The notes below the pieces were generated by a model. The model saw only the letters and a program-made list of their open reading frames with translations. It had not been told where the DNA came from and searched no databases. Below, one piece after another: positions 23,398 to 48,933 of a stretch of 64,000 nucleotides of DNA (positions are counted from its first letter, which is position 1; every line of letters starts with the position of its first letter). The stretch spans positions 62,001 to 126,000 of the forward strand of contig NZ_FOMZ01000007.1 of assembly GCF_900112765.1 (NCBI RefSeq). The letters are read 5' to 3'. Position numbers and translations under genes: made by a program. Source of the stretch: Actinopolyspora alba. Lineage in GTDB: Bacteria; Actinomycetota; Actinomycetes; Mycobacteriales; Pseudonocardiaceae.

Positions 23398-23770
23398 CCG
23401 GCCACCTCCTGACGCCCGTCGCGCGGGCAGTAGTGGTCGTTCGTCCTGCCCGGGTGGGCCCGTTGCGAGCTCGCGGTGGAAGCCCTCGGCGTGAGTCTCT
23501 GGCCGGGGTCGCCGGTGCGAGCTCCTGGGGCGTGCCCGGTGGAACGGCTCCAGTGTCCCCCGGGGGAGCGACAGATCGCACCTGATCAGTAGGGGAGACG
23601 CGGCGGCCGTGGCGGCGTGTCGACAAGCTCTCGAACATTAGTTCGGTTAGAATGGGTCCACAGCCGGGCAGGTTGTCCACGGATCCGTGGACCCGGAGCC
23701 GGAATGTCGGCCCTGACCCGTAGCGTCGGCCCTGAGACCACGACCTTCGAACCGACCGAGGTGGACCCCG
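23398..23770. other. 373-bp divergent region upstream of recA
   Basis: Holds the recA promoter with a LexA box (23631-23646) and, on the other strand, the DUF4383 promoter. No further gene was seen. Confidence 0.7.
23631..23646. promoter_or_regulatory. LexA-binding SOS box upstream of recA
   Basis: TCGAACATTAGTTCGG matches 11 of the 12 fixed bases of the actinobacterial LexA box TCGAAC-N4-GTTCGA. It lies 124 bp before the recA start, where recA SOS boxes are usually found. Confidence 0.88.
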
Positions 23771-24847
23771 ATGGCAGCAGCATCCGACAAGGGTGGCGAC
23801 AAGAGCAACGACAAGAACAAGGCTCTTGAACTGGCCATTGCCCAGATCGACAAGCAGTTCGGCAAGGGATCGGTGATGCGGCTGGGCGAGGACAACCGCC
23901 CGGCGGTGGAGGCGATCCCCAGCGGCTCGATCGCGCTGGACGTAGCGCTCGGCATCGGTGGGTTGCCGCGCGGACGCGTCGTCGAGATCTACGGCCCCGA
24001 GAGCAGTGGTAAGACATCGGTCGCCCTGCACGCGGTGGCCAACGCCCAGCGGGGTGGCGGTACGGCCGCGTTCATCGACGCCGAGCACGCCCTGGACCCC
24101 GAGTACGCCAAGGCGATCGGTGTGGACACCGACTCGCTGCTGGTTTCCCAGCCCGACACCGGTGAGCAGGCGTTGGAGATCGCCGACATGCTGATCCGCT
24201 CCGGTGCGCTGGACATAATCGCCATCGACTCGGTCGCCGCGCTGGTGCCCAAGGCCGAGATCGAGGGCGAGATGGGCGACAGCCACGTGGGTCTGCAGGC
24301 GCGGTTGATGAGTCAGGCGCTGCGCAAGCTGACATCCGCGCTGTACACCTCGCAGACCACAGCGGTGTTCATCAACCAGCTCCGGGAGAAGGTCGGCGTC
24401 ATGTTCGGCTCGCCGGAGACGACCACCGGTGGCAAGGCGCTGAAGTTCTACGCCTCGGTGCGGCTGGACGTGCGGCGCATCGAGACGCTCAAGGACGGTT
24501 CCGACGCGGTCGGGAACCGCACCAGGGTCAAGGTGGTCAAGAACAAGGTCAGCCCGCCGTTCAAGCAGGCCGAGTTCGACATCATCTACGGGCACGGCAT
24601 CAGCCGTGAGGGCTCGTTGATCGACATGGGGGTCGAGCACGGTTTCGTGCGCAAGTCCGGCGCCTGGTACACCTACGAGGGCGATCAGCTCGGCCAGGGC
24701 AAGGAGAACGCGCGCAAGTTCCTGCGGGACAACCCGGACGTGGCCAACGAGATCGAGAAGCGGATCAAGGAGAAGATGGGGATCGGCTCCGGCGCCGGTG
24801 CGGACACCGCCGAGCAGCAGAGCGAACCCGCGCCCGTCGAGTTCTGA
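23771..24847 (+). CDS. recA: Recombinase RecA, without intein
   Basis: A 358-aa DNA-dependent ATPase that forms filaments on single-stranded DNA, exchanges strands and triggers LexA self-cleavage. Walker A is GPESSGKT (residues 75-82), with the [15 protein letters not shown] Walker B region and the [14 protein letters not shown] loop. The C-terminus is acidic, as is usual. The sequence is uninterrupted, unlike the M. tuberculosis gene which carries an intein. The ATG at 23771 has GAGG eight bases upstream. It is in an operon with recX and under a LexA box, so it is DNA-damage inducible. Confidence 0.98.
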
Positions 24848-28516: not shown

Positions 28517-28657
28517 TCCCGGTTCGTTCGGACTCGGAACGGACACGGCCGGTGCGTGCGGCGGAGCCGCGGGGAACGTGGCCCGCTGGTGGGCAGCGCC
28601 CCATGCTCGGGGAAGCGGTCGGCCTCGGGAAGCACCCGCCCACGCACCGTCGTACAT

Positions 28658-28675
28658 TTCGCGAGAAATCGACGC
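28658..28675. repeat. Direct repeat copy 1 (TTCGCGAGAAATCGACGC)
   Basis: First of two identical 18-base copies 54 bp apart. In this copy the core ATTTC-GCGA-GAAAT can fold on a GCGA loop, extended by CGTCG/CGACG outside. Confidence 0.9.
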
Positions 28676-28700: not shown

Positions 28701-28732
28701 GTGGCGTCAACTTCGCGAGAAATCGACGCCAC
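28701..28732. terminator. Hairpin containing direct repeat copy 2
   Basis: GTGGCGTC (28701-28708) pairs perfectly with GACGCCAC (28725-28732); the loop holds TTC-GCGA-GAA. The second 18-base repeat copy is 28712-28729. It lies between convergent genes (siderophore-binding protein and eda), so a terminator role is plausible, but the repeated core suggests a dispersed element. Confidence 0.6.
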
Positions 28733-46536: not shown

Positions 46537-47268
46537 TCACATCTTGCGCAGCACAGCGACCACCTTGCCGAGCACGGTGGCCTGATCGGCGATGATCGGT
46601 TCGTAGTCGTCGTTGTGCGGTATCAGCCACAGGTGTTCCGCCGTGCGTTTGAAGGTCTTCACCGTGGCTTCCCCGTCGAGCATCGCGGCCACGACGTCGC
46701 CGTTCTCCGCGTCCGGCTGCTGCCGGACCGCCACCCAGTCACCATCCGTGATGGCCAGGTCCACCATGGAGTCGCCCACCACGCTCAGCAGGAAGAGGGA
46801 GCCCTCTCCGACGACCTCCCGTGGTAGCGGGAACACCTCGTCCACGGACTGCTCGGCGAGGATGGGCTCGCCCGCCGCGATACGACCCACCACCGGCACG
46901 TAAGCGGGGTTCGATCCGTCGGGGAAAGCCGGGGATTCCGAGTCGTCGTTGGTGACCACGCCGACCGTGCGGGGACGGTGCGGATCACGTTTCAGGTACC
47001 CGCGCCCTTCGAGTACACGCAGCTGATATGCCACCGAGGAAGTGGACGTCAACCCCACGGTGTCGCCGATCTCGCGCACACTGGGCGGATAGCCGTAGTC
47101 CCGCATCCACTGCCGGATCGTGTCCAGCACGCTTCGCTGGCGCGAAGTGAGCTCGTCGTTCGGCTCCGATGTGGCCTCGTCGTTGTTCCCGGAGTCGGTC
47201 GCCCGGGGTGTCGTGTCGGCTTCGCCGGACGTCCCGCCGTCGAACCGGTCGGAAGCGTAGCCGTCCAC
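46537..47268 (-). CDS. lexA: SOS repressor LexA
   Basis: A 243-aa repressor. An acidic low-complexity start of about 45 residues precedes the winged HTH ([16 protein letters not shown], then [19 protein letters not shown]). The Ala-Gly self-cleavage bond lies in GRIAAGEP; the catalytic Ser is in VGDSMVD and the Lys in EATVKTF. GTG 47268 was chosen with AGGAGG five bases upstream. A LexA box 71 bp upstream indicates autorepression. It is divergent from the SOS-box-controlled gene at 47722. Confidence 0.96.
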
Positions 47269-47338
47269 CACGCCCTCCTGTCCATCGCCGCTAGCGCGTG
47301 CACGCACATCTCCAGATTAGACGGCATGCGGAGTCGGA

Positions 47339-47354
47339 TCAAACACTAGTTCGA
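47339..47354. promoter_or_regulatory. LexA box upstream of lexA
   Basis: TCAAACACTAGTTCGA matches 11 of 12 fixed bases of TCGAAC-N4-GTTCGA and lies 71 bp before the lexA start, fitting autoregulation. Confidence 0.85.
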
Positions 47355-47572: not shown

Positions 47573-47588
47573 TCGTACAGCAGTTCGA
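47573..47588. promoter_or_regulatory. LexA box 1 of an abutting pair
   Basis: TCGTACAGCAGTTCGA matches 11 of 12 fixed bases of the LexA consensus. It touches the perfect box at 47589-47604 with no intervening base. Confidence 0.85.
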
Positions 47589-47604
47589 TCGAACTCGTGT
47601 TCGA
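47589..47604. promoter_or_regulatory. LexA box 2 of an abutting pair (perfect)
   Basis: TCGAACTCGTGTTCGA matches all 12 fixed bases of TCGAAC-N4-GTTCGA. It is 118 bp before the ATG of the membrane protein gene on the plus strand. Confidence 0.93.
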
Positions 47605-47721
47605 TCACGCTCGGATGTGTCGCGGACGGGTCGGTCGTCCCATCGGGGAAGGCGTGCGGTTCCCGGTGATGGGCTCCCGTGCTCGGGCCGTGGATACCGA
47701 AGATTCGTACGGGGAGTCGCG

Positions 47722-48090
47722 ATGCCGGTGTTTCGTGTTGCCAGGCGGATCGAGGAGCGCGAATGCCGGACGGTGGTCGGACGCCGCGCTGCCGATGATC
47801 GCGGGGCGCGGTATCTTGCCGCGGCGTCCTCGCGCGCTCCCGCGGCCCCGCGCGCGGCGAGCACTGAGCCGCCACGTGGCCACGAGAGCTGTGGTGGCGG
47901 CTCGCGATGCCCGGTTGCCCGCTCCGAAGCGTCGTGCTCCGTTGTCGGGCGCCGGGGCGGTGCGCCCGGCGGTGAGTCGCTCTCCGGTCCCCCGCGCTCG
48001 ACTCTCGTCGAGGTCGCCCTGCTCGTCGCGGCGGCCCTGGGGGCGGGTGCGTTCGTCTTGCTCGTCGGACTGTCGCTTTCGCTCGGATGA
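47722..48090 (+). CDS. SOS-controlled Arg-rich single-pass membrane protein (ChiZ/DivS-position)
   Basis: A 122-aa product: about 94 polar residues with 17 Arg, many Ala/Gly/Ser/Pro and four Cys, predicted disordered, then one C-terminal TM helix (VEVALLVAAALGAGAFVLLV) and stop. The ATG at 47722 has GGGGAG six bases upstream. It lies divergent from lexA and before nrdR, exactly where M. tuberculosis has ChiZ (Rv2719c) and Corynebacterium has DivS, both SOS-induced division inhibitors. ChiZ has an Arg-rich disordered N-terminus, a TM helix and then LysM; LysM is absent here. Two LexA boxes lie upstream. A division-inhibitor role is inferred from position, control and architecture. Confidence 0.65.
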   Translation: MPVFRVARRIEERECRTVVGRRAADDRGARYLAAASSRAPAAPRAASTEPPRGHESCGGGSRCPVARSEASCSVVGRRGGAPGGESLSGPPRSTLVEVALLVAAALGAGAFVLLVGLSLSLG

Positions 48091-48390
48091 GGCGGAAGTC
48101 GGCCGGCGCGCTCCGGGGTGGCGCCCGTTCCCGAGTGGCCGGAGCGCCGCTGTGATCGCTGTCCGGGGGGTGGTCGACATCCCGCTTCCCGAGTTGCTTA
48201 TGATTCGGTCCGGGATTAGGCTCAACCACAACATCTAGTAGTTGCATCGTTGTGATTAATCCATAGCTTGGGTGTGGCCGTCTTGTCGGCGGCTGTTCAC
48301 CCCCAGCGGTGTCAACCGTCCGCGGGGTACCGGGCGTCGCGTCGTGCGCGCCCGTGGACCATTGGGCTGTGTCGAGGGGATGACTGGCGA
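48091..48390. other. 300-bp region upstream of nrdR
   Basis: Carries the candidate NrdR site at 48227-48254 and is AT-richer around 48190-48270, consistent with the nrdRJ promoter. No cobalamin riboswitch features were recognised. Confidence 0.55.
48227..48254. promoter_or_regulatory. Candidate NrdR-binding site
   Basis: AACATCTAGTAGTT (48230-48243) is an imperfect palindrome (10 of 14 positions) centred on CTAG, and CACAAC (48227-48232) is mirrored by GTTGTG (48249-48254). It is 150 bp upstream of nrdR, where actinobacterial NrdR boxes occur. A clear second box, usual for NrdR, was not found. Confidence 0.5.
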
Positions 48391-48933
48391 GTGCGTTGTC
48401 CGTTCTGTCGAGGTGACGATTCGCGTGTCGTCGACTCCCGTGAGGTGGAGGAAGGGCAGTCGATCCGGCGCAGGCGGTCCTGTGCGGGCTGTGGACGCAG
48501 GTTCACCACTGTCGAGGAGCTGGTGCTCACGGTGGTGAAACGTTCGGGGGTGACCGAGCCCTTCAGCAGGGACAAGGTCGTGCGTGGGGTTCGTCGCGCG
48601 TGTCAGGGGCGCCCTGTGGCGGAGGACGACCTGCAGCAGCTCGCCCATCGGGTCGAGGAGACGATCAGGTCGCTCGGTGTTCCGGAGGTGCCCAGTCACG
48701 AGGTGGGGCTGGGGATCCTCGGCCCGCTGCGTGAGTTGGACGAGGTCGCTTACCTGCGGTTCGCCAGTGTCTATCGTTCGTTCACCTCGGTGGAGGATTT
48801 CGAACGTGAGATAGCCGAACTGCGCAGGGTGGAGGAGCCGGCTCCGGAGAGCTCCGGAACCGGGGGTGCCCCCGCGGGCGGCGAGGGGAACGAATCCGCC
48901 GGTCAACAGGACGAGGCGAGTGCGAATGCCTAA
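48391..48933 (+). CDS. nrdR: Ribonucleotide reductase repressor NrdR
   Basis: A 180-aa regulator that senses ATP/dATP and represses nrd operons. The N-terminal zinc ribbon begins [10 protein letters not shown] with the second Cys pair in [10 protein letters not shown]; the ATP-cone follows ([16 protein letters not shown]...). The C-terminal 30 residues are Gly/Glu-rich and extend beyond most homologues. The GTG at 48391 gives the invariant N-terminus; GAGGGG lies 11 bases upstream. It is in an operon with nrdJ. Confidence 0.95.

Follow-up and report, generated by a model that had tools for sequence, protein, structure and literature searches.

The lexA–nrdR slot of Actinopolyspora alba

The DNA analysed here (the window) is a stretch of 64,000 nucleotides from Actinopolyspora alba. 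Between lexA and nrdR it holds a frame for a short membrane protein, which is divergent from lexA and stands behind two putative LexA boxes that touch each other. The features of the locus are the following.

46537..47307, minus strand: lexA, 256 aa, the divergent neighbour (open reading frame; Pfam LexA_DNA_bind and Peptidase_S24)
47339..47354, no strand assigned: lexA's own LexA box, TCAAACACTAGTTCGA, 11/12
47573..47588, no strand assigned: LexA box 1 of the abutting pair, TCGTACAGCAGTTCGA, 11/12 to TCGAAC-N4-GTTCGA, outer half-site imperfect
47589..47604, no strand assigned: LexA box 2 of the abutting pair, TCGAACTCGTGTTCGA, 12/12
47711..47716, plus strand: Shine-Dalgarno-like GGGGAG, 5 nt 5' of the ATG (sequence; GGAGTC is shared by the six aligned copies)
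47722..48090, plus strand: LysM-less, Arg-rich, single-TM protein of 122 aa, ChiZ-like by place and layout (open reading frame, hydropathy, alignment)
48013..48069, plus strand: predicted TM helix, the most hydrophobic 19-residue stretch, residues 98–116 (hydropathy)
48164..48191, plus strand: terminator-like hairpin, after the frame and ahead of nrdR (pattern match only, with a chance expectation of 0.6)
48226..48262, no strand assigned: CCACAACATCTAGTAG...TTGTGATTAATCC block ahead of nrdR, the same in all six aligned copies from Actinopolyspora and presumably NrdR-box-like
48391..48933, plus strand: nrdR, the downstream neighbour (Pfam Zn_ribbon_NrdR and ATP-cone; start taken as GTG 48391)

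A preceding sequence-only reading had described a frame of 122 residues, divergent from lexA and followed by nrdR, with 17 Arg and a single C-terminal TM helix, and the open reading frame, its hydropathy and the Pfam matches of the neighbours bear this out. The part ahead of the TM helix contains 17 Arg, no Lys and 10 Asp plus Glu, and six residues follow the 19-residue TM window. That the frame is open means little, as 514 of 2000 dinucleotide shuffles remain open and other open frames overlap it, but its hydropathy peak (KD 2.54) was reached by none of the 2000 shuffles, and the other five frames do not exceed 0.66. With LexA boxes between the gene and the divergent lexA, and with an Arg-rich tail followed by one TM helix (hydropathy), the layout is that of ChiZ, whose tail is likewise rich in Arg; the ChiZ slot and layout proposed for the gene (17 Arg, KD 2.54, lexA and nrdR as neighbours) are supported. 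A LysM domain was not found: across 1700 bases, from lexA into nrdR, no frame matched a LysM profile at E values up to 10, Pfam LysM is absent from the 122-aa protein, and no NCBIfam model matched the frame.

A paired LexA operator that is common in the family

Direct reading of positions 47573–47588 and 47589–47604 upheld the two touching boxes with 11 and 12 of 12 matches. Single LexA boxes with at most one mismatch are found at 75 places in the 5.24-Mb genome versus 7 for the reversed control, and the abutting-pair pattern is found once, with none as control. The gene recA lies in the same window (23771–24847) and has an 11/12 box at 23631–23646, about 125 nt 5' of its ATG; as lexA and recA both carry 11/12 boxes, the LexA consensus suits this genome. 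Judged by pattern counts, the putative LexA operator at the 47722 gene is improbable by chance, and it is conserved in relatives. No sigma-70 promoter pattern matched at this gene, and a PafBC-type promoter was rejected, its consensus being matched at best with 3 or 4 mismatches in five Actinopolyspora loci and with 2 to 4 in six relatives. The centres of the touching boxes are 16 bp apart, which at about 10.5 bp per turn amounts to 1.5 turns, so that two LexA dimers could occupy opposite faces of the DNA. The colicin genes of E. coli provide an analogy for late, tight control through paired LexA boxes.

We surveyed 64 lexA loci, 10 from Actinopolyspora and 54 from other members of the Pseudonocardiaceae; four of the 60 genomes scanned gave no LexA match at E 1e-70 and no locus in this set. 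A pair of boxes (each with at most two mismatches) at exactly 16 bp is present in 55 of the 64 loci, the remainder having a spacing of 15 (one locus) or 17 (one), a single box (six), or none besides lexA's own (one). The latter, of TCAAAC/CCAAAC type, occurs in all 64. The pair pattern was also detected in 239 of 390 family genomes and 31 of 46 genera (control 0), a count of one pattern only, so that other genomes may carry weaker versions. In a named collection, a stricter pair pattern gave at least 119 loci; of the 119 listed, 114 have a match to lexA no further than 1.3 kb away. The outer half-site of box 1 is imperfect in 54 of the 55 pairs (TCGCAC 40, TCGTAC 5, TCGCTC 5, others 4) and box 2, on the gene side, has a perfect GTTCGA in 47 of 55. 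We regard the abutting operator with its imperfect outer half-site as a conserved device.

The double box, which the sequence-only reading proposed to give tight repression, is borne out, but nothing supports a special status for it: it is the usual arrangement in the family, occurs with LysM-bearing genes as well, and has a precedent in M. tuberculosis, for which passages of PMC8151990 describe more than one SOS box between lexA and Rv2719c, on the side of the latter. According to these passages, lexA of that species uses a single SOS box; the three others, together with a PafBC motif, act on the neighbouring operon, printed as Rv2019c-Rv2017c in the text and named the rv2719c operon in a supplementary legend (PMC8151990). 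Multiple operators as such are thus already known, and they have no tie to the absence of LysM.

A second LexA-type protein (LexA_DNA_bind and Peptidase_S24) is encoded in the window genome (G000 C20:188480-189100, corresponding to L020 1501-2121). A second LexA match, 45–50% identical to LexA, is present in seven of the ten Actinopolyspora genomes, and no good LexA box was found at the promoter of this second gene.

The genome also contains a dispersed palindrome, GATTTCGCGNGAAATC, with 267 forward and 275 reverse matches in 5.24 Mb at one mismatch or fewer (reversed control 0), numbers in which one site may count on both strands as the sequence is near-symmetric. Several of the listed copies are paired, 44–73 bp apart; the element is REP-like. 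The window has it at 28655–28670 and 28709–28724, with three matches at these two places versus 0.08 expected (at most two mismatches).

Partial conservation within Actinopolyspora

Conservation of the frame in related genomes, a check proposed along with the sequence-only reading, was found in part of the genus: six of ten Actinopolyspora genomes, including that of the window, keep it with the same start, stop and TM helix. Identities to the window copy are 86, 86, 69, 48 and 49% in the five others, the length is 116–123 aa, and the double box and Shine-Dalgarno region are retained in all six.

Several measurements make the window copy less secure. The dN/dS values are 0.45–0.81 over the 15 pairs of the six copies, and GC3 of the window frame (0.77) is not above GC1 (0.78). 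A frame test against column shuffles gave z 2.18 both with four and with six Actinopolyspora genomes (4 and 7 of 300 shuffles as high), with controls at -0.1 to 0.7 for the leader and 4.57 for lexA; because reverse frames reach 2.06 in lexA and 2.1 in the stretch of L014–L016, this value is a hint that alone decides little. In favour of the frame, the hydrophobicity of the TM helix is kept under change, with 18 to 328 of 5000 spectrum-matched random replicas as high in seven directions of comparison. Profile matches to the family are not significant. A family profile of tail and TM helix did not match the window frame even at E 10, and a TM profile from the nearest genera, applied for homology to the lexA-linked LysM family, gave E 0.35 for L012, E 4.7 for L013 and no match for the window copy. 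The right frame of L012 ranked first of the 2321 frames outside the profile's own seed rows, yet at that E value. A Cys stands 26–30 residues before the TM helix in the three Actinopolyspora copies measured, compared with 8–25 in most LysM proteins of the family.

The other four species (L014–L017) have no TM frame in the slot when all six frames are checked (best 1.53). Three of them (L014–L016) possess a single box, TCGTACTGGTGTTCGA, and L017 has lexA's box only. The single box reads like a fusion of box 1 (left part) with box 2 (right part), such as would be left by a deletion of 16 bp between the repeats. Between positions 252 and 917, L014–L016 show no blastn similarity to L013 (E 0.01). 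Behind the single box of L014–L016, candidates for a different conserved frame were unconvincing, with a best forward z of 1.1 and one reverse z of 2.1. The slot gene seems to have been lost in L014–L017. Constraint on the gene is relaxed in Actinopolyspora, and four of ten species have no recognisable copy; the window copy is probably functional but may be disappearing.

Recurrent absence of LysM

None of the ten Actinopolyspora genomes has LysM in any frame of the slot, so that a local frameshift cannot explain the absence, and we reject a frameshift that conceals the domain. The absence is real, as had been claimed from the window alone. A relocated LysM was also considered and set aside; each of the ten genomes has one LysM match elsewhere, in a frame of 285–336 aa.

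The usual gene behind the double box encodes an Arg-rich tail, a TM helix and LysM. LysM is present in 46 of the 64 loci (E 7.4e-18 or better), as scored with a profile built from 35 LysM tails that are themselves among these 46. In 26 of 35 LysM-bearing relatives a Cys is located 8–25 residues before the TM helix, often with Arg or Pro close behind.

The 18 loci without LysM are the ten of Actinopolyspora together with L055, L056, L062, L070, L080, L083, L092 (E 0.23, a possible remnant) and L108. A TM frame is present in the slot in 13 of them and missing in five (L014–L017 and L062) when both strands are examined. Placed on a LexA tree, which has many weak forks and includes a short sequence (L101), the presence of LysM requires at least seven changes, or six when the five TM-less loci are left out; Actinopolyspora is one clade on this tree (98/94). 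One change is recent, since in genus g60 the genome G070 is without LysM and its congener G413 has it (E 1.8e-27). In genus g58, G068 (L056) has a LysM-less TM frame, and neither box pair nor TM frame was found in G265 (L254). Among the at least 119 loci of the named collection, 106 are listed with 600 nt or more behind the box; LysM is present in 86 of these and missing from 20. These 20 comprise 15 from Lentzea and one each from 'Nocardia sp. NRRL S-836', Gandjariella thermophila, Pseudonocardia sp. ICBG1293, A. mzabensis and an Actinomycetales MAG, the last with a longer non-LysM part after its TM helix. Absence of LysM is a recurrent trait in the family, and its occurrence in several related lineages suggests that the remaining tail and TM helix may suffice.

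A LysM-less protein under selection in Lentzea

Lentzea, outside the window, gives the strongest result and is the clean case. A tail-plus-TM protein of 87–93 aa is encoded in all 24 genomes, and LysM is absent from every frame of the 24 loci (E 0.1). The median dN/dS is 0.18 over 275 of 276 pairs (first part 0.13, middle 0.24, TM part 0.18), the tail included, and the frame test reached z 7.7 when four of the 24 genomes were used and 10.6 when six were; one reverse frame, at 4.9 and 5.9, is a shadow of the coding frame. This strong purifying selection indicates that the LysM-less form is kept under selection in Lentzea.

The protein resembles that of the window in its slot, in the abutting boxes and in its end, seven residues after the TM window (L083). 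It is unlike the window copy in its strong constraint and in being matched by the family profile of tail and TM helix (L083 E 5.8e-10, L080 E 1.5e-9). The distance from the boxes to its start is 31 nt in 23 of 24 genomes and 41 nt in one.

Proposed function and alternative explanations

We favour, with some confidence, a reading in which the window frame encodes a ChiZ-like membrane protein without LysM, repressed by LexA, whose tail and TM helix probably serve to restrain division and which is under relaxed constraint in this genus. The boxes, the frame, its TM peak, the slot, the absence of LysM, the repeated absence in relatives and the constraint in Lentzea are observed; restraint of division is inferred from place, control and layout.

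Expression, membrane insertion, topology, target and division arrest can be pictured as follows. LexA bound to the two abutting boxes would keep the gene off until RecA-stimulated self-cleavage of LexA frees both. The short bitopic protein then made would have its Arg-rich, disordered tail in the cytoplasm, one TM helix and about six residues outside, and could reach the division site through the TM helix and the membrane-binding tail. There it would hold back a late division step (FtsW, FtsI and FtsQ are named in work on ChiZ and YneA) without a grip on the peptidoglycan; with about six residues outside, it could act only via the TM helix and the cytoplasmic tail.

The main rival reading is that the frame is a decaying ChiZ-like remnant, in which LysM was lost first, tail and TM helix are drifting, and elsewhere in the genus nothing recognisable is left, with the double box as a fossil or kept for lexA. 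We consider this rather unlikely, although it accounts for the dN/dS of 0.45–0.81, the weak frame signal of the window copy, the four species (L014–L017) without a TM frame and with one hybrid-looking box or none, and the failure of blastn to align L014–L016 with L013 between 252 and 917. It would also fit the leader between boxes and ATG, which is 91–117 nt long versus 0–79 nt in 35 relatives (29 of them at 10–61; starts chosen by script). Against mere decay speak the six copies that share start, stop and a length of 116–123 aa, all with double box and Shine-Dalgarno region, and a TM helix more hydrophobic than random change mostly yields.

It is quite improbable that the protein is real and SOS-induced but has a role other than restraint of division, for example only binding to the membrane under DNA damage. 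Such a role would be compatible with a sequence that the family profile does not recognise and with our literature search, which found no functional data for Actinopolyspora; place, layout and control, however, match the known division inhibitors ChiZ, DivS, YneA and SosA, as presented in passages of PMC6851548. Highly improbable is a spurious frame, with the boxes serving lexA alone or an untranslated RNA. The 514 of 2000 shuffles that remain open and the overlapping open frames would allow it, but the TM peak, seen in 0 of 2000 shuffles, is kept in six species, and 35 relatives carry a LysM gene 0–79 nt behind the boxes.

Our preferred reading, a LysM-less restraint on division, corresponds to what the sequence-only reading had called a minimal SOS division inhibitor. 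For the window copy it is weakened, because purifying selection in this genus is weak and four species have no TM frame, so that it is better founded as a type, on the evidence from Lentzea, than for the window copy. We give an even chance to a more general view, in which LysM-free SOS division inhibitors, composed of one TM helix and a disordered, Arg-rich tail, are a recurrent natural class; LysM would be a dispensable add-on that several lineages lack, and the form without it would be fixed and selected in Lentzea and eroding towards complete loss in Actinopolyspora. If true, division would be arrested by contacts of TM helix and tail alone, unlike in YneA. The need for LysM has been reported differently, as essential for YneA and dispensable for ChiZ, and its repeated natural absence together with the selection in Lentzea is evolutionary evidence for the dispensable view. 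The Lentzea forms are natural test proteins of about 90 aa, and Actinopolyspora offers a chance to follow the disappearance of an SOS checkpoint gene.

Comparison with known SOS division inhibitors

In the open literature (subscription papers were mostly outside the scope), we found no account of the LysM-less forms of Actinopolyspora or Lentzea. Streptomyces is said, in a passage of PMC9380542, to be without clear homologues of known inhibitors.

YneA of Bacillus subtilis is likewise an SOS-induced bitopic inhibitor. It needs LysM, which the window frame does not have, and this counts against the favoured reading; according to sections of PMC13396833, TM helix and LysM are both required and the TM helix binds TM7 of FtsW. 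AlphaFold 3 models in the same source place ChiZ and SosA on FtsW, though not with high confidence according to its authors (PMC13396833). A LysM-bearing form from the family (L074) has a weak match to the NCBIfam YneA model (E 2.2e-8, 34 bits, cut-off 60). SosA of Staphylococcus aureus is, as described in part of PMC6851548, a short, single-TM, LysM-less SOS inhibitor beside lexA. Its extended extracellular part is critical for activity (a passage of PMC13396833), whereas the window protein has about six residues there; with six residues past the TM window, it has no extracellular part of the SosA/YneA type.

DivS of Corynebacterium glutamicum, set beside the window protein by description only, is lexA-linked and SOS-induced and has one TM helix and no LysM (the relevant part of PMC6851548); a review calls it unrelated to other inhibitors (a passage of PMC3989709).

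The closest parallel in layout is ChiZ (Rv2719c) of M. tuberculosis, which shares with the window protein the divergence from lexA, several SOS boxes, a disordered cytoplasmic tail and one TM helix (passages of PMC7355643 and PMC8151990). The window protein differs in having no LysM and about six extracellular residues, and in not matching the family profile of tail and TM helix. LysM of ChiZ appears to be unnecessary according to a review (a passage of PMC3989709), and the introduction of PMC7355643 states that the claim of hydrolase activity was likely a false positive and that the tail and TM helix of ChiZ are enough for filamentation.
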